Assembly: GCA_004525685.1 (NCBI GenBank) | Contig: SPBW01000004.1 | Location: 1-32,534 of the forward strand | Length of the DNA stretch: 32,534 nucleotides | Source of the DNA: Candidatus Atribacteria bacterium | Lineage (GTDB): Bacteria; Bipolaricaulota; Bipolaricaulia; UBA7950; UBA9294 | Direction: 5' to 3' | Shown here: positions 946-28,024 of the stretch, in pieces | Layout: every line of letters starts with the position of its first letter | How positions within the stretch are numbered: position 1 is the first letter of the stretch | The notes under the pieces: generated by a model | Databases searched by the model: none | What the model was told of the DNA's origin: nothing | Seen by the model: the letters and a program-made list of their open reading frames with translations, nothing else | Program-made: the position numbers and the translations under genes

Positions 946-3924
946 TCATTCGCTCAGCTTCTTACGGAGTTCACGTAGCCTGTCCGCCATGGAGTGAAGC
1001 GCCGGATGCTCTGGCTGAAGCATAGAGGCCTCCCGATACCATCGTTCAGCAGCGCCTATGCTTCGCTCATCAAGCGCAACGTCCATTAGCGCCAATGCGC
1101 ATTCAGCTTGAATGTGACTCCACTTCCTGTGCCCGAGAAACGAAAACGCCTCTTCCAACAGTTCTCTAGCAGACGCACAATTGCCCAGCTGCCTGCAGGT
1201 ATAGGCCAACTCAAGCAGGTTTTGCCCAATTCGAAGGCGATCTCCAATCTCACGACTCAGCTGGAGAGCTCTTTCAGCCAACTCTTCGCTTCTCTTGAGC
1301 TCTCCCAGTTTACGTGTCACGCGTGCCTGGCCGGAGATGGCATCAACAACTCCCGCGACATCGTTGGCAACCGCTTCCCCCAAACGTTGGCTCTCTTCGT
1401 ACCGAGCCAATGCCAATTCAAGATTCTCATAGGCCTCTGCTACGCGGGCCAATGAGAAGAGTATCAATCCTTCCCCCCATCGATCTCCAATCTCTCGGTG
1501 AAGACGCAGGCTCTGATGCGCCAGCGACTCTCCGTATGCCTCATCCCGGCGGCTTTCCAGGACAGACCACGCACCCGTAGCCAGTCCCTCTCCTCTCATG
1601 TCCTGATGTTCTCTGTAGAAGGCAGCGCTTTCTTGTGCCCGGCGCAGATCGCTTTCCAGATCTTCACCAGCAAGAGCATAGGCGCATACCACGTTGGCCA
1701 GGGCATGGAGTCGGCTGGTGAGATCTTCGGCAGTGAGCAGGCTCAAGCCGTCTCTCATCCGATCCATCGCTCGATCTGGCCAGACAGACGACATGAACCA
1801 CCCTGACGTGATTCGCAAGAACGCGTAGACTATGGGGTCTCGATCTTCATGTTTCGCATAGGCATTGGCCGCACTGAGGAAAATCCTCTCCGCCTCTTCG
1901 TACTGCGTGCGCATGTCGTAGTAGAAGAACAACCCCTCACAGCTCGCATTCAGGAGAACTGCGTTGCCGATCTCTGCGGCATGTTGGAACGCAGATCGGA
2001 TGTTCCCTATGTCCTGTCCGATCCGCTCCAGGGTTGCATATTGATTGGGCCCGATCAGTTCTTGGAGCCAATTCCCCACGGCATGCAGATAGTGTTCGGC
2101 GTGTCGGATGTGCACGCGTTCGACCTCGCTCTGCAGCGCGCCCAGCTTTCCAGAAGCAAATTGGCGAAGCAGTTCGTGGATCTCGTATCGATCGGGCCCA
2201 ATTCGCTTGAGAAGGCAGCGATTAGCCAGAAGGGCCAGATGGCTCGGCGAGGTTTCAGTCACATATTCGGCGGCTTCGATGGTGAACGAGCTACGGAAAG
2301 TCGATAGCTTACGAAGCGCAACTTGCGCCCCTTCTGTAAGCATGTTCCATGCCTGTTCGAACACGACAACAAAAGCGCGATGCTTGAGCGCAACATCCTC
2401 CAGCGTATGCGTAAGGAAGCTGAGGTTGTTCGAGATACGATTGGCGATCTCATCCCACGTCAGTACAGATCGCCACCCAGCCGCCATCTCAAGGCCCAAT
2501 GGAGAACCTTCAAGCAATCTTGCCAATCGAGCCATGCCTGCCAACTCCACCTCGTCTCGTCCGGGAGGACTGCCGTGTCGCTGTGCAGAGATGCGAAGCA
2601 GGCGGATTGCTGCATAGTCAGACAACTGCTCTGGAGCAGTATCGGCATCAGGGTACTTCAATCCGTGCAGTGTTATCGCTGTTTCACAGGCAACACCGAG
2701 TGCGATGCGAGAGGTTAGCAGCAGTTGAACGCCAGGTGCTGTCTCAAGCGCAGGCAACAGGGCAGCCACTTGGGGCAGCACGCGCTCGACACCGTCCAGG
2801 ATCAGCAGAAGATTCCGAATACGCAGAAACTCTGCCAGCTGTCGGACAAGCCCCAGCTCGCTTTCTCGGCTGAGGGATACCCCCAAGGCATGGGCCACTG
2901 TGGATGCGACCACATCGTCTCCTCGGATGGCATCGAGGGAGACCATGTACGCGCCTAGTTCATACTGGTCTTCAATTCGGCGCCCCACATGAAGAGCTAG
3001 ACTTGTCTTTCCTGATCCACCCAAGCCGACGATGTTCACAACACGAACCGACTCTTCAAGCAACAGGGCCTCAATCTGCGCAGCGATCTCTTGTCGCCCG
3101 ATGAACGGTACCAGAGCATGCGGAAGACGATGGGGGCGTGCCATGGATTTGGAGGACCTCTTCTCGCTTTGCGTGGCTCGGATCTGTTCTGCCAGCCCGG
3201 ATGTAGACTCCTCTGGCGACAACCCCAATTCAGCTTGCAGCACATGAGAGCACTCTTCGAACACCCTCAATGCGTCACTGCGTTTGCCTTGTGCAGACAT
3301 CGCTTGCATGAGCCTGCGATACCCCAGTTCGTTGAGAGGATCGGCTTGAATCCATTTCCGCGCATATCGGGCACTTGCGGGCCATTCCTCGATAGAGAAG
3401 TAGTACTCGATGATTCGATCCAGCGTCTCCGTCAATTCGCGCTTCAATGCCTCGCCTTCAGCAAACTGCCAATCATCAAACTGACCGGAGTTGGCCACAG
3501 CGAATCCTTGCATGAATGGTCCTTGCCACAGGCGCACGGCTTCCCTAAGGCGCGGCTCGCAAATAGAACAGACAGCCGTCAAGCCATGTTCGTTGGCATG
3601 GCAGTGGCTCGTAAGGTCACGAAACTGGTTGACATCCACCTCAAGCCGCCCCGTGTTGCGCAGTTGAACTGCGCTTCGGTCGCTTGCGATGGCATCAGAA
3701 AGCGGTGTTTGCCGAAGAATCCACAACACATTTCGCAAGGCAGAGTATGCTGCAACTGCATCCGATTCCGGCCACAAGAGGGCGGCCAGCGTCTCTCGAT
3801 GGTGTCGACTACGCGTCACGGCGAGATACGACAACAGAGCCATCGCTTTGCGTCGGCTCAATGGCGTCATCTCTCCATTCTCATACAGCACTGGCGCGCC
3901 GAAGAGCTGCAGGCTCAGCTTCAT
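946..3924 (-). CDS. BTAD/SARP-family transcriptional regulator with NB-ARC-like ATPase and TPR repeats (paralog 1)
   Basis: N-terminal LSRRKAMALLSYLAVT...LLWPES winged-helix/BTAD region, Walker A GLGGSGKTS, Walker B LLLILDGVE, TPR-like C-terminus. Start set at internal ATG (MKLSLQLFGAPVLYENG), matching the paralog's MTSHLQLFGTPVLHWNG, rather than the upstream GTG of the ORF track. Confidence 0.88.
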   Translation of the reverse strand: MKLSLQLFGAPVLYENGEMTPLSRRKAMALLSYLAVTRSRHHRETLAALLWPESDAVAAYSALRNVLWILRQTPLSDAIASDRSAVQLRNTGRLEVDVNQFRDLTSHCHANEHGLTAVCSICEPRLREAVRLWQGPFMQGFAVANSGQFDDWQFAEGEALKRELTETLDRIIEYYFSIEEWPASARYARKWIQADPLNELGYRRLMQAMSAQGKRSDALRVFEECSHVLQAELGLSPEESTSGLAEQIRATQSEKRSSKSMARPHRLPHALVPFIGRQEIAAQIEALLLEESVRVVNIVGLGGSGKTSLALHVGRRIEDQYELGAYMVSLDAIRGDDVVASTVAHALGVSLSRESELGLVRQLAEFLRIRNLLLILDGVERVLPQVAALLPALETAPGVQLLLTSRIALGVACETAITLHGLKYPDADTAPEQLSDYAAIRLLRISAQRHGSPPGRDEVELAGMARLARLLEGSPLGLEMAAGWRSVLTWDEIANRISNNLSFLTHTLEDVALKHRAFVVVFEQAWNMLTEGAQVALRKLSTFRSSFTIEAAEYVTETSPSHLALLANRCLLKRIGPDRYEIHELLRQFASGKLGALQSEVERVHIRHAEHYLHAVGNWLQELIGPNQYATLERIGQDIGNIRSAFQHAAEIGNAVLLNASCEGLFFYYDMRTQYEEAERIFLSAANAYAKHEDRDPIVYAFLRITSGWFMSSVWPDRAMDRMRDGLSLLTAEDLTSRLHALANVVCAYALAGEDLESDLRRAQESAAFYREHQDMRGEGLATGAWSVLESRRDEAYGESLAHQSLRLHREIGDRWGEGLILFSLARVAEAYENLELALARYEESQRLGEAVANDVAGVVDAISGQARVTRKLGELKRSEELAERALQLSREIGDRLRIGQNLLELAYTCRQLGNCASARELLEEAFSFLGHRKWSHIQAECALALMDVALDERSIGAAERWYREASMLQPEHPALHSMADRLRELRKKLSE

Positions 3925-3941
3925 GAGGCATCCGCTTTCAT
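3921..3941 (-). other. Putative leaderless mini-ORF MKADAS* overlapping the regulator start (TCATGA)
   Basis: ATG AAA GCG GAT GCC TCA TGA; ATG lies 6 nt after the TACAAT -10 box; stop TGA overlaps the ATG at 3924. Confidence 0.4.
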
Positions 3942-3947
3942 ACACAT

Positions 3948-3953
3948 ATTGTA
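3948..3953 (-). promoter_or_regulatory. Putative -10 box TACAAT for BTAD regulator 1
   Basis: TACAAT 6 nt upstream of ATG at 3941; weak -35. Confidence 0.45.
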
Positions 3954-4090
3954 CCCTCACTCAACAGCTTGCCGAAGAGGTCCATCATGTCGAACTCGGT
4001 TGCCTCAGCCATGACCCAACTGGCCGCACTGCAGAGAAAGTTGCTAGGCGACAATTGCTACAGCGACGTACTTGTGTAGCCGACGCGAGT

Positions 4091-5077: not shown

Positions 5078-8041
5078 CTAAGCTTGGCTCTTCATCTGCT
5101 CAAGCCTAGCGGATAACTGGGTAATGGATGGATCATTTGGCTTAAGGACGGATGCCTCGCGAAGCCACCTTTCTGCTGAAATCTCATCGGATTCATCGAG
5201 TGCCAGTTCTAGCAATTGCACTGCGCAGGCAGCCTGTAAGCTACTCCATCGCTGATGATTCAGCAGACGAAATGCCTCTTCTAGATTGTCTTCCGCGCAA
5301 GCAGATTCTCCGATCGATCGAGTGGCACGGGCAAGCTCAAGCAACGCTCGTCCAATCTGGAAGCCATAACCTGTCTTCCGCCCAAGGCGAAGCGCCTCTT
5401 CTGCCAGCTGCCTACTTGTCTCCCCATGCCCGAGACGAAGTTCCACCCGTGCTTGGCCGAGAATCGTACTAATCACACCGAATCCATCTCTCGTGAAGGG
5501 CTCAGTCAGCCTTTGTGCATCTTGATATCGAGCCAATGAGAGCTTCAGGTTTCCCTGTAGCTCAGCCGCCCGCGCAAGGAGGAAAAGTGCGATACTCTCG
5601 CCCCACTGATCCTTCAGGCCACGGTGCAGGCGAAGGCTCTCTTGCGCCAACTGCTCAACCCTCATGCTGTCATGGAATGTCTCGACAGTTGCCCAGGTCC
5701 CCAAGGCTGAACCCTCTCCCCATAGATCCGCTTGGGCTCGATAGAAGTCAATACTCTGCATAAGCCGCTCGCTATTCTCATCACGCTCCTGTCCAAAGCT
5801 GACGCCCGCATAGAGTATGTTTGCCGTGGCGTGAAGGCGATCATCGAGCTCCATTCCTGAGAGCAGTTTCAGGCCATCACCTTTCAGGCGGTGTGCCGCA
5901 TCAGGGTGATCCCATACAGCGAAGTATCCGGCCGCAATCGTCAAGAACGCATCGATGATTTCCTCCCGATCAGGGCACTGGCGATAGGACTCAAGTGCCC
6001 TCGTGAAGGTCGCTTCTCCCTCAGTGAGGAGCGTTCGCATGTCGTGGTAGCAAAACAACCCTTCGCACAGATCACGCAGCTGTTGTGATGCGCCGTGGCT
6101 GGCCGCATTTTGAAATGCCAGCCTCACATTCTCAATCTCATTTTCCATGCACCTGAACGTTTGATGCTGATCCGGCCCCTTGAGTTTCTCAAACCACTCG
6201 CCTACGGCGCTCGTGTAGTAGTCAAGATGGCGCAACAGCAGTTGCTCGGCTTCCGTTGTCTCCATTCTTGCAGAGGCGAATTGCCGAAGCAACGCATGCA
6301 TTCTGTAGCAGTCCGATCCGATCCGCGTGAGCAGATGGCGATTAACAAGTACCGCAAGGGACGTAGGATCGCTCTTAGTTACCCGCTCTGCTGCTTGAAT
6401 CGTGAATCCACCTCGAAAGACACTCAGCCGTCTTAAGGCAGCTCGTGCATCCGTTGGCAGCAATTTCCACGATTGCTCAAACACAACGGCCATCGTACGG
6501 TGTCTGGGGGCAACATCCTTTCGTCGATGAACAAGGAATTCCAGGCCGTCTGAAATACGATCAGCAATGGCATCCCACGACAAGATCGAACGCCAGCCAG
6601 CGGCCATCTCCAACCCGAGGGGAGACCCTTCCAGTTGCACGGCAAGGCGTGCCATTCCACTCAGCTCTGCGGCATCGGGCGAGCTGTGCGCTCCTTGCCG
6701 TTCAGCGACAAGGTGTAGAAGCCGAACAGCTGCGCAGTCTGCAATGGTCCTTGGATCGGCATCCTCATCTGGCACCTCCAATCCCTGCAATGGAACGATG
6801 ATTTCGCCCGCAATGCCTATCTCAACCCTTGAGGTGGCAAGGATTCTTACTCCGGGTGCGGTCTCCAATGCTTGGGCAAACGCGGAAACTTGCGGAACGA
6901 GTCCCTCAACACCATCCAGAATGAGCAGCACATGCTGGTCCTGGAGCACATCCGCTAGGCGCGCGTCAAGAGTTGGCCTCGTCCCTCCAATCGATGTCAG
7001 ATTGAGCGCCCTGATCACAGCTGAAGCGATTGAGGAGCCGGATGAGCCTGAATCGAGCGGCACGTACGCCGCACCTTCGGCGAAATGCCCCTCAATGTGT
7101 CGCCCCACGTGCAGGGCGAGGCTCGTCTTCCCCACACCTCCGAGCCCTACTAGGCTCACGAATCGTGTTGACTCGTCAAGCAGAAGGACTTCTACTCTTT
7201 GCGCGGGGACGCTCCGTCCGATCAAGGGAATCGCTGCCTGCGGCAGCCGGCTCACTCGCACCCGGCCGCCTATCGACACGGCAACCTGCGTATTGCGAAT
7301 GGCTGAAGCTAGATCGGACGTCGTATCCTCAGGAGTCAACCCCAGTTCCTCTCCAAGGATGCGGCCACACTCATCATAGACCTGCAGGGCCTCACTCCTC
7401 TTCCCTTGCGCAAGAAGCGCCTTCATGAGCGCGCGATACCCAAGTTCATTCAGAGCATCGATCTTGATCCACTGTCGTGCGTACCGGGCCGTCGCGCACC
7501 AATCTTCGATCGACAAGTAATACTCGATCATCCGGCTCAGCGTCTCGGATGCTTCTCGATTCAGAGCCGCTCCTTCTGCCACTTGCCACTCATCGAATTG
7601 GGTAGAATTCGCTGCTGCGTAGCCATGCATGAATGACCCTGTCCTCAAGCACATCGCTTCCGCCAGACGAGGTTCACACTGCGCGCAGACCACATCCATG
7701 CCGTGCGCCGCAGTGGGGCAATCGCGCACAAGATCACGGAAACGATTCACGTCAATCGATAGGGTCTCGTTCTCCAGAAGTGTGACTGTGCTTCGGTCGC
7801 TCTGGATGTGCTCGGCAATCGGCGTCTTGCGCAGCATCCAGAGAAGATTCCGCAAACCTGCATGCGCCGACTCAGACTCAGATTCTGGCCACAAGAGGGT
7901 GGCCAGAGTCTCTCTGTGATGGCAGCGTCTTGTAACTGCGAGATACGACAGCAACGCCATCGCCTTGCGCCGATCAAGTCGGACAGGAGTGCCATTCCAG
8001 TGGAGAACTGGCGTGCCAAATAACTGAAGATGGGACGTCAT
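5078..8041 (-). CDS. BTAD/SARP-family transcriptional regulator with NB-ARC-like ATPase and TPR repeats (paralog 2)
   Basis: Full-length similarity to the 946-3924 product; Walker A GLGGVGKTS, Walker B VLLILDGVE. Confidence 0.9.
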   Translation of the reverse strand: MTSHLQLFGTPVLHWNGTPVRLDRRKAMALLSYLAVTRRCHHRETLATLLWPESESESAHAGLRNLLWMLRKTPIAEHIQSDRSTVTLLENETLSIDVNRFRDLVRDCPTAAHGMDVVCAQCEPRLAEAMCLRTGSFMHGYAAANSTQFDEWQVAEGAALNREASETLSRMIEYYLSIEDWCATARYARQWIKIDALNELGYRALMKALLAQGKRSEALQVYDECGRILGEELGLTPEDTTSDLASAIRNTQVAVSIGGRVRVSRLPQAAIPLIGRSVPAQRVEVLLLDESTRFVSLVGLGGVGKTSLALHVGRHIEGHFAEGAAYVPLDSGSSGSSIASAVIRALNLTSIGGTRPTLDARLADVLQDQHVLLILDGVEGLVPQVSAFAQALETAPGVRILATSRVEIGIAGEIIVPLQGLEVPDEDADPRTIADCAAVRLLHLVAERQGAHSSPDAAELSGMARLAVQLEGSPLGLEMAAGWRSILSWDAIADRISDGLEFLVHRRKDVAPRHRTMAVVFEQSWKLLPTDARAALRRLSVFRGGFTIQAAERVTKSDPTSLAVLVNRHLLTRIGSDCYRMHALLRQFASARMETTEAEQLLLRHLDYYTSAVGEWFEKLKGPDQHQTFRCMENEIENVRLAFQNAASHGASQQLRDLCEGLFCYHDMRTLLTEGEATFTRALESYRQCPDREEIIDAFLTIAAGYFAVWDHPDAAHRLKGDGLKLLSGMELDDRLHATANILYAGVSFGQERDENSERLMQSIDFYRAQADLWGEGSALGTWATVETFHDSMRVEQLAQESLRLHRGLKDQWGESIALFLLARAAELQGNLKLSLARYQDAQRLTEPFTRDGFGVISTILGQARVELRLGHGETSRQLAEEALRLGRKTGYGFQIGRALLELARATRSIGESACAEDNLEEAFRLLNHQRWSSLQAACAVQLLELALDESDEISAERWLREASVLKPNDPSITQLSARLEQMKSQA

Positions 8042-18816: not shown

Positions 18817-20691
18817 CTAGTGGATGGTCAAGTATCCAGCTTCCGCCAGCAAGCTGATTGCCTGCTCGATGTCTGCCGTTGCGAATACCTGCCGGAAGTC
18901 GAGTGACAAGCAAGCCGCAATCTCAGGGACCGTTCTCGTTCCATCTGCCAGGTTTGCCAGCAGCTGCAGCGGCGCACCGTGATGCGAGAACAGCTTCTCT
19001 TCCAAGAACTCTCGATCCTCTTTGGGGAGGTTCTGAATCGCCTCATAGCGCACGGGCCCATCGAGGATCCGTACGGGCCTTATGTCATTGCAGCCACTCG
19101 CATCTGTCTCATTGGAGCTTCTGTGATTCGCCATCAGAGCACAACAGGTTGCTTGCAGGGCGTCCACATGCAAGACAGGATTCCAAGTGTCTTCGCCAAG
19201 CAGCTTGGCGAGCGAGTCAGCTCGCGATGTTTCGGTCGCCAATGCAGTGTCCAGCAGCAGTCGCTGCATCGCGCCGTCCGCAGATCGCGCCAGCGTGCTC
19301 GCTAGAGCCAGTTCGCGTTGACTGAACGCCAGCAGCCACGCCGCCAGCAGCTGCGGCTCGCAAGGTCCCCACGTCGGCAGGGTAGACAGCAGCGCGGTGA
19401 GAACGCCCACACACTTCAGACGCGTCGGATCGACCTTCTCGATCGTGTCCAGATCGGTGTGCCAATACGGATCATCGTGCCCAAGCATCGCCGAAGGAGC
19501 ATTCACCGGAGGCGCCTGAAAGACGAGATGGTCGCTCCCTCCGCTGGGGGCATCGAGGATCCAGTGGAGCACGCGACGCGACCCCTGCGCCGCCAAGAAG
19601 CGCGCATCGGAAGCGATGGTTGCCAACAGTGGCTCGAAACAGGCATTGAGAAAGACGGGATGCGAATTGGGTACGCGGAACACGCGCAGCGGTTCGCCGA
19701 TAAGCTCGGGGGATTGCCCCACCATGTCGAGATTGATGGAGAACAGCACGTCCTTCAGACTGTCCGCATTGGCCGCCGCCCAGGGAACGGCTCCATTGAA
19801 CTCCGGGACCCACACCAGACGAACCGCGTTCGCCAACTCACCCTGCTCCGCCAGCTTGGTGAGAATGCGAGCGATTTCCAGCATCACGCCGCTTCCCGAA
19901 GCGTTGTCATTGGCCGACTGGGCAGGATGACAGAGATGAGCGACCAGCAGAATCTCACGCGCCGCTTCGTCGGATCCAGCAACCGTCGCCTCCAGGACTT
20001 GCATCGGATTGTCGACGAACTCGGCGTCCACTTGGCCGCGAACGCGCACGGGTCCCTTCTCTAGATCCTTCAGCAACGCATCGGCAGTGCGACGAGAGAT
20101 GGAGAAGCCCATCGGCAGCCAATCCAACTCATCAGCCTTGGGAAACAATCCCCCATACTGCACCAAGTCATACGACGGAGCAGCGCGTTCAACATCCGGA
20201 TAGAGGATGATCGCGGCAACGCCCCTTCCCTTCAGGCATTTGAGCATGGAGGCCGGCCGCCCATTCGTCAGCAGGAACTTGCCTCGGAGATCGAGACCCT
20301 CGAAGCAGTCTTCAGAATCGCCTGCGCCGACGTGAACGACCTCGCCGTCTGCGTCCCCTCCGGCCGACTGTCCCAGAATCGATTGTTTGACGATATCGTA
20401 CGACCCGAGTCGCTTCTCCTTGGGATCAATCTGGCTCAGGCTGCCTGCTCGAACGGTCCAACCGGGCGGCGCGATCCACCCGAAGGTTGTCGTTTCGCCA
20501 TCGGCAACGAACGTTGACACCCTAGATTGGATGTCCAGTGCTGTGAGTTCTTCGGCGACGTAACGAACGGCGTCATCGTATCCCGGTGATGCCTGAATCC
20601 GGTGGAATGCGGCAATCTCGGCAACCGTGTTCTTGGCCCGAAGGCCAGACAATTCATCCGCGAGGAACGAGAGAAGCGCGTCAAGTTTCAT
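18817..20691 (-). CDS. M28-type/DUF4910-like aminopeptidase with PA-like segment and C-terminal winged-helix-like tail
   Basis: LLVAHLCHPAQSANDNASGSGVMLEIARIL metal-binding region, INLDMVGQ, HWILDAPSGGSDHLVF; C-terminal LLANLADGTRTVPEIAACL...IEQAISLLAEAGYLTI. SD GGGAGG. Confidence 0.8.
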   Translation of the reverse strand: MKLDALLSFLADELSGLRAKNTVAEIAAFHRIQASPGYDDAVRYVAEELTALDIQSRVSTFVADGETTTFGWIAPPGWTVRAGSLSQIDPKEKRLGSYDIVKQSILGQSAGGDADGEVVHVGAGDSEDCFEGLDLRGKFLLTNGRPASMLKCLKGRGVAAIILYPDVERAAPSYDLVQYGGLFPKADELDWLPMGFSISRRTADALLKDLEKGPVRVRGQVDAEFVDNPMQVLEATVAGSDEAAREILLVAHLCHPAQSANDNASGSGVMLEIARILTKLAEQGELANAVRLVWVPEFNGAVPWAAANADSLKDVLFSINLDMVGQSPELIGEPLRVFRVPNSHPVFLNACFEPLLATIASDARFLAAQGSRRVLHWILDAPSGGSDHLVFQAPPVNAPSAMLGHDDPYWHTDLDTIEKVDPTRLKCVGVLTALLSTLPTWGPCEPQLLAAWLLAFSQRELALASTLARSADGAMQRLLLDTALATETSRADSLAKLLGEDTWNPVLHVDALQATCCALMANHRSSNETDASGCNDIRPVRILDGPVRYEAIQNLPKEDREFLEEKLFSHHGAPLQLLANLADGTRTVPEIAACLSLDFRQVFATADIEQAISLLAEAGYLTIH

Positions 20692-24302: not shown

Positions 24303-25076
24303 ATGAAGTCTTTTTATGTTGAATCACTGAACGCACATCTGTTTTATCACGATCTGCCTGGAGATGGACCTGTTCTTGTCATGCTCCACGGATTGGGCTC
24401 TTCTTCCTCTTCCTGGTATCCGCCAGCCGCGCACCATGTGTCACTTCGCAATCACCGCTGCCTGCTAGTCGACTTCCTTGGATATGGCTACAGCGATCGA
24501 CCGCGAGACTATGACTACGCCATGGAATCACAGGCAGACACGGTTGCCAAGCTACTGGATCACCTTTGCCTAACCGACTGCATCGTGGTCGGGCACAGTA
24601 TGGGTGGCTCCATTGCCATCCTCCTTGCCGACGCGAGGCCGGACCTTGTTTCACATCTCATTGTCGCAGAAGGAAATCTTGATCCGGGTCCCGGGTTTGT
24701 CAGCGGGAGGATTGTCACGGTATCTGAGCAAGTGTTCGCCACATCGAAGTTCTATGACTTCTGCCAGCAGATGCGCGAGACCGGATACCACGACTACGCA
24801 AGTACGCTGAGGGCATCGGAGCCTGTGGCTCTCTATCGAAGCGCGGTCTCACTAATTGCTGATCGATCTCCCTCGTATCGAGAGCGATTCTACAACGCGA
24901 CCATGCCTCGTACGTTCATCTTTGGCGAGCGAACGTTGCCCGATCCTGATGAGAAGGTGCTTGTCGAGAACGGCATCGACGTACACATCGTGCCCATGGC
25001 CAGTCATGACATGATGGGAGACAATCCACAAGGCTTCGCTGAAGCAATCGTTGAGGGCATCATCCAGGCCTCCTAG
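24303..25076 (+). CDS. Alpha/beta-fold hydrolase
   Basis: VLVMLHGLGSSSSSW, VVGHSMGGSIAILLA nucleophile elbow, C-terminal ASHDMMGDNP His. Confidence 0.9.
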   Translation: MKSFYVESLNAHLFYHDLPGDGPVLVMLHGLGSSSSSWYPPAAHHVSLRNHRCLLVDFLGYGYSDRPRDYDYAMESQADTVAKLLDHLCLTDCIVVGHSMGGSIAILLADARPDLVSHLIVAEGNLDPGPGFVSGRIVTVSEQVFATSKFYDFCQQMRETGYHDYASTLRASEPVALYRSAVSLIADRSPSYRERFYNATMPRTFIFGERTLPDPDEKVLVENGIDVHIVPMASHDMMGDNPQGFAEAIVEGIIQAS

Positions 25077-25161: not shown

Positions 25162-25195
25162 GCCACGTGACAAGAAAGGTTCTCCGGGAGGTCCG

Positions 25196-28024
25196 ATGAG
25201 TGGAAAACGTTTCAGAATCGCTTTGGTGCTTGCTTCACTGATTGTGGCCGCGGGTATGTTCGCGTTCGGCCAAGATTCCCCAGAAGCCACAAGCTATGAA
25301 ATCAGAATCAGCCTAGACACCGAGATGGATACGATGGTTGGCATTCAGGAAGTTCACGTCGTCAATCGCTCCAGCGAAGCCGTGGATGAGATTCCGTTCG
25401 CGTTGATCGCCAATTGGGGAGCAGAACCCAATCCCTATCTTCATCCTGCGCTCACCGACGCACAGTACGCGGCGGGGTTCGATCCCACCTGGACACGAAT
25501 CTCGCAGGTCAGAGACGCAGATGGGAATCCACTCTCGTTTCGCCTCGCACCCACACCACCGTTTCTTCTGACCTTCTCACTCGAAGCTGGACTCCTCATT
25601 GTCGAATTGGATGCTCCTCTAGCCCCCGGTGCCGAGATCTTGATTCGCATCGATTTCGAAACGAAGTTCGCGCGCGCATCAGCAGGAGACAACTGCGTAG
25701 CCAAGGACACCTATACGTGGCGATTCGGCTGGAATCCCGTGCTGGTCGATTCAGGAGCGCTCGCTGGGAGATTTGAACTACCTGCTGCCAACTACCATGT
25801 CGAGTTGACGATTCCGCAAGGTTATCACGCATTCGGCGGCGCCGACATGCAACAGGAACTCGGCACTGAAGCGGGAATCAAGACCATTGAGCTCTCCAAC
25901 CAGCGCCCCACACGCTCCGTCCCATTGATCATCGGCCCTGAGCTTTCATCCGTATCGACTGAGTGGAACGGAGTGACAATCGAAGCCGTCTATCTTCCAG
26001 GTGGCGAAGCCTACGCTCGCGAAGCGCTATCGTATGCAGAAGAGATCCTGGACTATCATACTGAGCAATTCGGCCCCTTCGCTGGAACCCGTCTGATCAT
26101 CGCTGAGAATCCGACGTCTGGATTCTTCGGTATGGCAGCCGATGGCTTCGTCCTTGTTGGAGCTAGCATCGTCCGCTTGAAAGACATGCCAGCCCTCGGT
26201 ATCTATGATCGCGTTTCGGAGTACCTCCTCGCGCATGAGATCGCCCACCTTTGGTGGGGCATTGGTATCGGCACGGACTTCAATGCCGAGAACTGGATTT
26301 CGGAGGGGTTTGCCGAGTACCTATCTATTAGCTATTTCGAGGACCGATATGGAGGGTTCAATCCCAATCTTCTTAGCCACCTTCAGCCGGGGCTTGTTGA
26401 GGACGCCATGCTGGAATCGATGGGATACATGAATCTCCGGCAACACATGTCGGAGCTACCCTACCTGGCTCTCCTGCAACTGGGATTCGACGAACCGATC
26501 ATTCAACCCATGGCAGATTCGCAGTATCTCAATGGCATTACAATTCGCACCTACAGCAAGGGGTACCTGGCCCTGAGAGCCTTGGAGGCAATCATCGGGA
26601 AAGACACGCTGCACACGATCCTGGTCGAAGCTCTCGATGAATGGAATGGCAAGCTCCTCTCTGTAGAAGACTTCAAGCTTCTCGCCGAGCGGATCTCGCA
26701 GAGTGATTTGGCCGATTTCTTCGCCGATTGGATCTACGGTACGGCTCAACTTGACGTCGGCATCTCGGGGTTCGATACACACGCCATGGAGTCAGGCTAT
26801 CAGACACTGCTCACGCTGTCGGGCATCGATCCCATCTTCCCAGTGGATATCCAAGCCACGTTGACCGACGGCTCAACTGCAGAGATGAGGTTCGTACCTA
26901 CCTGCTGTTCTGCCGACACCGTCGCTTTCGAGACGGTTCTACCCATCTCTGCCATTGCCATTGATCCTGACGAGATGCTTCCAGATGCCAACCGTTACAA
27001 TAATCACTGGCCGCGCAAGATCATGGTCGACCACCCATTCCGATCTGCTGATGCACCTGAGATCGGGAAGCCACTTGATGCCTATGTCATCGACATCTCA
27101 CCGACTGGCATTTCCGGCAGCTTCCGAAACGATCACGCTTGGAGCTTGATGCTTCTCCCACACATCGATCCGAACATGGATTGGGAATCGTTCAATAGCC
27201 TAGATGACAGGCTGCTACTCGACCTGGTCGGCGTGTTTGCCGCGAACATTGGGCGAGATCTTGGCATCTCGTTCACCGGCATGATTACAGCGTTGGATCT
27301 GCAGACGGGAATGGGAGAGCTAGATGCAATGCTGACAGCTCGCATCTTAGGGTTCACTCATCCTCAGACGGGTCAAGCGGGCCTGTACTGGTATCCAAGC
27401 TGGCAGCATACGCTAACCGTAGGAGCTCTCGGGGCCTTGCCCCGTCCCACACCGTATCTGTCGCTGTCTGTTCAATATGACAGCCAGCCGACAATACTGA
27501 TGCGAAACAGGATGCAGCTCGTCTTGGGAATTCCCGGGTTCGGCACGGCGCCCTTCGCGTCCATCACGTGGCAAGGAGAACGCAGACTTCGCCTGTTCCA
27601 CTTGATGTATGTGGACGTTGGTGCCTCGATCGCTGAATCCTTGTCGCAGGATCTTCCAAACGAGTTTCTCTTCTCGCTGAGCCAGCTTCACTCGTTCGAC
27701 TACTTGCCCATGGGGCACCATCAGGCGTATGCCGCCATCGAGGCAGTCTTTCCTCCGCTCGTCAGAGATAGCGGCTATGCCATCTTGAACTTGACTCGAC
27801 TTGACTCGATCACACCGTCGGTGTTCATCCAGGGGGGGCGAACCCAGGCCAATTGCCTGAGCGTCTGTGAACCCGGCATTCGCGTGGAGGCTGGAGCGAG
27901 ACTAGCATTCATCTTCCCAGGATTCCTGGGCACCTCGATCAGGCTTGATATCGGATACGCCGTTCCGCTCATTGGCGTTGACGGGAGTGCCCGCGCCTTC
28001 TTCGAACTAGGAGGCGGCTTCTAG
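25196..28024 (+). CDS. Exported M1-type (gluzincin) metallopeptidase with C-terminal Omp85/surface-antigen-like barrel region
   Basis: Signal peptide; LLAHEIAHLWWGIGIGTDFNAENWISEGFAEYLS (HEXXH-X18-E); C-terminal ~200 aa with beta-rich strands ending SIRLDIGYAVPLIGVDGSARAFFELGGGF with terminal Phe. SD GGGAGG before ATG 25196. Confidence 0.82.
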   Translation: MSGKRFRIALVLASLIVAAGMFAFGQDSPEATSYEIRISLDTEMDTMVGIQEVHVVNRSSEAVDEIPFALIANWGAEPNPYLHPALTDAQYAAGFDPTWTRISQVRDADGNPLSFRLAPTPPFLLTFSLEAGLLIVELDAPLAPGAEILIRIDFETKFARASAGDNCVAKDTYTWRFGWNPVLVDSGALAGRFELPAANYHVELTIPQGYHAFGGADMQQELGTEAGIKTIELSNQRPTRSVPLIIGPELSSVSTEWNGVTIEAVYLPGGEAYAREALSYAEEILDYHTEQFGPFAGTRLIIAENPTSGFFGMAADGFVLVGASIVRLKDMPALGIYDRVSEYLLAHEIAHLWWGIGIGTDFNAENWISEGFAEYLSISYFEDRYGGFNPNLLSHLQPGLVEDAMLESMGYMNLRQHMSELPYLALLQLGFDEPIIQPMADSQYLNGITIRTYSKGYLALRALEAIIGKDTLHTILVEALDEWNGKLLSVEDFKLLAERISQSDLADFFADWIYGTAQLDVGISGFDTHAMESGYQTLLTLSGIDPIFPVDIQATLTDGSTAEMRFVPTCCSADTVAFETVLPISAIAIDPDEMLPDANRYNNHWPRKIMVDHPFRSADAPEIGKPLDAYVIDISPTGISGSFRNDHAWSLMLLPHIDPNMDWESFNSLDDRLLLDLVGVFAANIGRDLGISFTGMITALDLQTGMGELDAMLTARILGFTHPQTGQAGLYWYPSWQHTLTVGALGALPRPTPYLSLSVQYDSQPTILMRNRMQLVLGIPGFGTAPFASITWQGERRLRLFHLMYVDVGASIAESLSQDLPNEFLFSLSQLHSFDYLPMGHHQAYAAIEAVFPPLVRDSGYAILNLTRLDSITPSVFIQGGRTQANCLSVCEPGIRVEAGARLAFIFPGFLGTSIRLDIGYAVPLIGVDGSARAFFELGGGF

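Follow-up and report, generated by a model that had tools for sequence, protein, structure and literature searches.

A predicted outer-membrane-anchored fusion of an M1 zinc peptidase to an Omp85-type barrel in Bipolaricaulota

The general task of Omp85 proteins is to assemble other proteins or to translocate them; they carry a loop, L6, between strands 11 and 12, and the N-terminal domains of the known members are periplasmic. A survey published in 2014 recognized ten Omp85 subfamilies, among which the POTRA domain is not universal and none of which was described with an M1 peptidase (PMC4104836). The nearest precedent for the protein analysed here, as a preliminary description of the locus had already proposed, is PlpD: like other patatin-Omp85 proteins (FplA), it joins an N-terminal hydrolase and a C-terminal Omp85 barrel in one chain, and its patatin domain, earlier thought to be secreted, has since been demonstrated to be periplasmic (PMC11116518). 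The POTRA-less ‘Metallo’ subfamily likewise places a metal-dependent enzyme domain on an Omp85 barrel, although that domain, which Heinz and Lithgow (2014) label a metalloprotease, belongs to PF00149 and not to M1 (PMC4104836).

Looser parallels are offered by two other peptidases. In AaaA an aminopeptidase is tethered by its own outer membrane barrel, although AaaA is a classical autotransporter, presented at the surface, with a barrel unrelated to the one described below (PMC3426542). BepA is a periplasmic zinc metallopeptidase that works at BAM, the outer membrane assembly machine (PMC8423444); the likeness is one of logic only, as BepA belongs to a different peptidase family (M48) and is a soluble protein in its own right.

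Here we describe a gene from the 313-contig assembly of a Bipolaricaulota bacterium, located in a stretch of 32,534 nucleotides (the window). Its product is best read as an outer-membrane-anchored M1-Omp85 fusion with the zinc peptidase on the periplasmic side, a reading to which, architecture and topology taken jointly, we assign a probability of roughly 0.8. Where PlpD has a patatin lipase and one POTRA domain, this protein has a zinc peptidase of the M1 type and lacks a POTRA; the enzyme parts of the two are unrelated in sequence, and Pfam gives no patatin match in the fusion protein. The peptidase also differs from the ‘Metallo’ domain, whose family, PF00149, we take to be that of the calcineurin-like phosphoesterases. 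No description of an M1-Omp85 fusion was found in the open-access literature; the protein thus appears to add a further N-terminal partner type to the ten published Omp85 subfamilies, none of which seems to have included an M1-type zinc peptidase before. Pfam-based annotation labels these proteins plain M1 aminopeptidases, a label that the missing GxMEN glutamate and the barrel both contradict.

The fused reading frame and its M1 unit

The gene occupies positions 25196..28024 of the forward strand and encodes 942 amino acids, from an ATG at 25196 to a stop codon at 28022-28024, with homologues of equal length throughout the phylum; a Shine-Dalgarno-like GGGAGG, read from the sequence (25186..25191, +), lies 4 bases 5' of the ATG. 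Start, frame and length agree with the preliminary description, and the strings quoted there are present in the protein, including HEIAHLWW from residue 347, TSGFFGMAADGFVLVG and the Phe-terminated C-terminal strands. An assembly artefact is excluded, since the fused frame is kept as a single open reading frame across the phylum. Residues 1 to ~26 (25196..25273, +) form a putative Sec signal peptide with a KR n-region, a hydrophobic core and an uncertain cleavage site; the N-termini of the relatives are similar in this region.

Residues 280-512 match PF01433 (Peptidase_M1; E 3.6e-11, with 43.5 bits where the cut-off is 27.7), as do 27/27 relatives, and a full-length AF2 model resolves residues 33-605 as a beta-saddle, followed by a catalytic domain and a third domain that is all-beta. 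Foldseek matches this unit to IRAP, ERAP1 and ERAP2 (E 1e-23 to 1e-26, about 600 columns). On the evidence of the model strands and these matches, domain I, the beta-saddle, spans residues ~33-257 (25292..25966, +; most blocks with pLDDT >80); catalytic domain II, placed by Foldseek and the PF01433 match, spans residues ~258-515 (25967..26740, +); and domain III, which is without helices in the full-length model, spans residues ~520-605 (26753..27010, +). The HExxH-X18-E zinc site (H347-E348-x-x-H351 ... E370; 26234..26305, +) is invariant in 27/27 relatives, as is Y453 (RTYSKG; 26552..26554, +) within its RxYxKG context, which we take, by homology to the M1 YEKG motif, to be the catalytic Tyr. 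Pfam match, zinc site and fold of domains I-III together bear out the earlier call of an M1-type metallopeptidase.

In these three domains, the zinc site and the catalytic Tyr, the protein resembles IRAP, ERAP1/2, LTA4 hydrolase and the tricorn factor F3; unlike them, it lacks the Glu of GxMEN, carries a barrel in place of the helical domain IV (which LTA4 hydrolase does not have in that form) and would be tethered to the outer membrane. The GxMEN Glu of M1 enzymes binds the free amine of the substrate. At the equivalent site, located by alignment of the relatives at residues 308-317 (SGFFGMAADG; 26117..26146, +), the critical position, 314, is never E among the 26 relatives that span it (A in 18, T in 7, G in 1). 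Judged from these residues, the zinc catalysis of the fusion protein is probably intact; classical aminopeptidase activity is unlikely because the Glu is absent in all relatives covering the site, a result that justifies the doubt already voiced in the preliminary description. AMEYP or AVEYP still stands at the GxMEN place in a sister M1 subfamily of this phylum, and the loss is therefore specific to the subfamily of the window protein. A search of viral contigs returned nothing beyond six distant M1 matches.

A predicted Omp85-type barrel at the C-terminus

The four-domain M1 aminopeptidases continue into a helical domain IV; here that domain is missing, and the structure predictions place an all-beta barrel in its stead. 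Residues 626-942 (27071..28021, +) are predicted to form an Omp85-type barrel of 16 strands, on the basis of amphipathic pattern, profile comparison with BamA, strand number and fold matches. Amphipathic-beta windows occur in the C-terminal domain at a rate of 0.154, against 0.057 in shuffles (2.7 times), and the excess (z>1) recurs in the C-terminal domains of 27/27 relatives as against 0/27 for the M1 catalytic domain, in keeping with the alternating amphipathic strands that the first reading of the sequence had noticed. In hhalign, the barrel profile matches that of the phylum's BamA with a probability of 87% (E 4e-6) in an alignment that reaches the C-terminus; all controls (reversed query, reversed template, N-terminal-domain profile) give probabilities <1%.

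A structure model, suggested in the preliminary description as a check, was obtained for a crop of residues 600-942, using an alignment of 5 sequences (four orthologues added; Latescibacterota rows were left out, as the alignment became ragged when they were added). The AF2 crop has exactly 16 strands (pLDDT 72, pTM 0.68), and its longest loop past the first strands joins β11 and β12, the place of L6. Its 14 PDB fold matches with E<=0.001 belong without exception to Omp85 proteins (TamA, BamA, FhaC), with TamA 8us3 at 1.3e-6, and Sam50 and CdiB rank just beneath; compared with TamA, the crop gives TM-scores of about 0.5 and an rmsd of 7-10 Å.

By hhalign, AF2 and alignments alike, the strand 11-12 loop carries QLHSF (residues 830-834; 27683..27697, +) where Omp85 proteins have the L6 motif (V/I)RG(F/Y). 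The loop is in place, but the consensus there is ELxSF, with an Arg in 6/27 sequences and LRGF in one alone (L022); because of this degraded motif, we class the barrel as related to that of Omp85 but divergent, and not as a standard member. Pfam finds no match, PF01103 included, in the C-termini of the window protein and its 27 relatives, and the barrel profile has no relevant match among PDB sequences; the sequence link to Omp85 is therefore remote, as no Bipolaricaulota member of the family reaches PF01103 and no PDB sequence is relevant.

Such silence from Pfam and PDB sequences, together with the full-length AF2 model (8 sequences), in which the barrel is unresolved and most of the C-terminus has pLDDT <50, is what might be expected if the last 317 residues instead folded into a soluble domain, either a beta-sandwich or one like that of ERAP, outcomes that the preliminary description had named as fatal to its proposal. 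The cropped model, however, folds like neither: it consists of 16 hairpin strands, every best fold match is an Omp85 protein, the BamA profile match comes with clean controls, and the helices of ERAP domain IV are absent, making a non-barrel fold the least probable of all the alternatives considered here. The proposed C-terminal barrel is thus retained as Omp85-type, albeit with a size of ~317 residues (626-942) in place of the ~200 first suggested.

Envelope, topology and possible role

The window's genome encodes BamA, and a PF01103 protein (BamA) is present at one per genome in 35/40 relatives; Pfam profiles for LptD and for TamB each find 0/20. LPS genes have not been found in Bipolaricaulota, for which a simple, Thermotoga-like diderm envelope has been proposed as a possibility (PMC6092417). 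Given the presence of BamA and this published proposal, the organism is very probably diderm, which answers the concern, raised at the outset, that it might be monoderm. With BamA present and LptD and TamB undetected, the fusion may be one of few other Omp85-type proteins in the phylum, and its family may offer an entry to the construction and quality control of a minimal outer membrane.

We propose that the protein would be exported by Sec and that its C-terminal domain would be inserted in the outer membrane by BAM, folding there as an Omp85-type barrel of 16 strands. The M1 unit (domains I-III) would then be suspended in the periplasm from the N-terminal strand of the barrel, where BamA, TamA and PlpD carry POTRA domains. 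The region directly ahead of the barrel is M1 domain III, which in the full-length AF2 model is all-beta without helices and is therefore not a POTRA. The barrel substitutes for M1 domain IV, and the M1 unit for the POTRA domains.

Because Omp85 proteins studied so far hold their N-terminal domains in the periplasm, and because PlpD sets a precedent, we infer that the M1 unit faces the periplasm. The idea of a self-anchored peptidase, with M1 domain and barrel in one chain, is supported; of the two locations first offered for it, surface or periplasm, only the second is kept. A surface-exposed peptidase, its M1 domain passed through the barrel or threaded around it in the manner of autotransporters, seems very improbable: it is at odds with the topology of Omp85 N-terminal domains and with the reassignment of PlpD to the periplasm, and a folded M1 unit of ~600 residues would need passage across a 16-stranded barrel. 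Surface aminopeptidase autotransporters do exist, AaaA being an example, but they employ a barrel of another type (PMC3426542).

With its zinc chemistry intact and the Glu that reads a free N-terminus gone, the periplasmic enzyme would most likely cut something besides ordinary peptide N-termini. Our tentative first choice, at somewhat short of even odds, is housekeeping proteolysis of outer membrane or periplasmic polypeptides at the membrane, a form of envelope quality control in which the targets would be misassembled or maturing envelope proteins, by a logic like that of BepA. An important envelope function is suggested by the distribution of the family, which is close to universal in the phylum and usually encoded beside pheT. 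Nutritional processing, in which the tethered M1 domain would trim peptides crossing the outer membrane, perhaps via the barrel, before uptake, is a weaker candidate and on balance unlikely. Peptide trimming is common among M1 enzymes, the active site could be brought close to an entry route by the barrel, and an M28-type peptidase gene is also present in the window; against this, the Glu for N-terminal trimming is lost in 26/26 relatives spanning the site, the usual gene context is corC and pheT rather than transport, and to our knowledge no Omp85 barrel so far described is a nutrient porin.

The M1 unit might alternatively serve, without catalysis, as a POTRA substitute or substrate platform, making the protein a second assembly factor and a TamA-like partner of BamA. 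TamA is indeed the closest fold, the M1 unit sits in the POTRA position, and assembly or translocation is the general task of Omp85 proteins; yet catalysis is favoured by the invariance of the general base, the Tyr and every zinc ligand, TamB is undetected in 20 relatives, the L6 motif is degraded and POTRA domains are absent, so that we regard this role as less likely again. More doubtful still, within the proteolytic reading that we prefer, is a specific arrangement in which the barrel would cap the M1 active-site cleft to form a proteolytic chamber, at the periplasmic mouth or lateral seam, processing chains that meet the outer membrane. If true, this would be a one-polypeptide protease-translocon, present almost throughout a diderm phylum in which LPS export is not detected.

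Distribution, paralogs and related proteins

The M1-Omp85 family is present, usually as a single copy, in 96/100 Bipolaricaulota genomes, representing 39/39 genera. The fusion, described at first as unusual, is undescribed in the literature found, but it is no one-off, being near-universal in its phylum and having relatives in Latescibacterota. At 25 loci examined, a CorC/CNNM-like gene lies upstream in 15 and pheT downstream in 13, with either or both in over half; these neighbour names are presumptive, assigned by reading the sequences. The window's own genome has a core copy of this kind (L205:2551-5373; G000:C136), with a corC-like gene before it and pheT directly after; the gene in the window is an additional paralog, away from the corC/pheT locus. 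Nine sequences, from family f1 and in one case from f3, make up a separate paralogous clade, with full support in the tree, to which the window gene belongs. One genome of the same genus has two window-type paralogs (L005 and L168; G004:C167 and C166) plus a core copy.

The upstream neighbour of the fusion gene encodes an alpha/beta-hydrolase (24303..25076, +) and is not counted as part of the fusion system; an operon of the two was rejected, the neighbourhood being conserved within the genus only. Elsewhere in the window, two regulators of ~1000 amino acids with BTAD, NB-ARC and TPR domains are encoded near one another on the reverse strand (949-3960 and 5081-8041), and an M28/DUF4910-type peptidase of 624 amino acids lies upstream of the fusion gene on the opposite strand (18820-20691, −).

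The sister subfamily of M1 fusions in Bipolaricaulota (L206-L212), which keeps the exopeptidase-like AMEYP/AVEYP, can be aligned through its own C-terminal domain with BamA (E 2.7e-4) and with the window-type barrel (E 4.7e-5), and it groups in the tree with a Latescibacterota protein (support 100/100). Latescibacterota L040 reaches PF01103 at E 0.0013. Because of this grouping and the weak PF01103 matches there, the architecture either predates the Bipolaricaulota radiation or moved between phyla. M1 proteins in a small set of genomes around a Latescibacterota MAG (L039, L040, L200-L203) were seen in 5/60 genomes searched, some with weak C-terminal PF01103 matches.

In hhalign, the C-termini of Latescibacterota or Bacteroidota candidates show no significant match to Bipolaricaulota BamA, and we treat these proteins as leads, not proof. 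Among them, a Cytophagales record and its relatives (L042, L180-L192) are M1 proteins of ~1040-1110 amino acids with an extra ~400 C-terminal residues, for which neither Pfam nor hhalign supports a barrel; these C-termini often bear GGGLN(I/L)RG(Y/F), which resembles the Omp85 L6 loop, and they are possibly an independent M1-barrel fusion. An M1 protein of 992 amino acids in a record titled as a Bifidobacterium breve MAG (L065) resembles Acidobacteria proteins from the same search and perhaps reflects a binning or label error.
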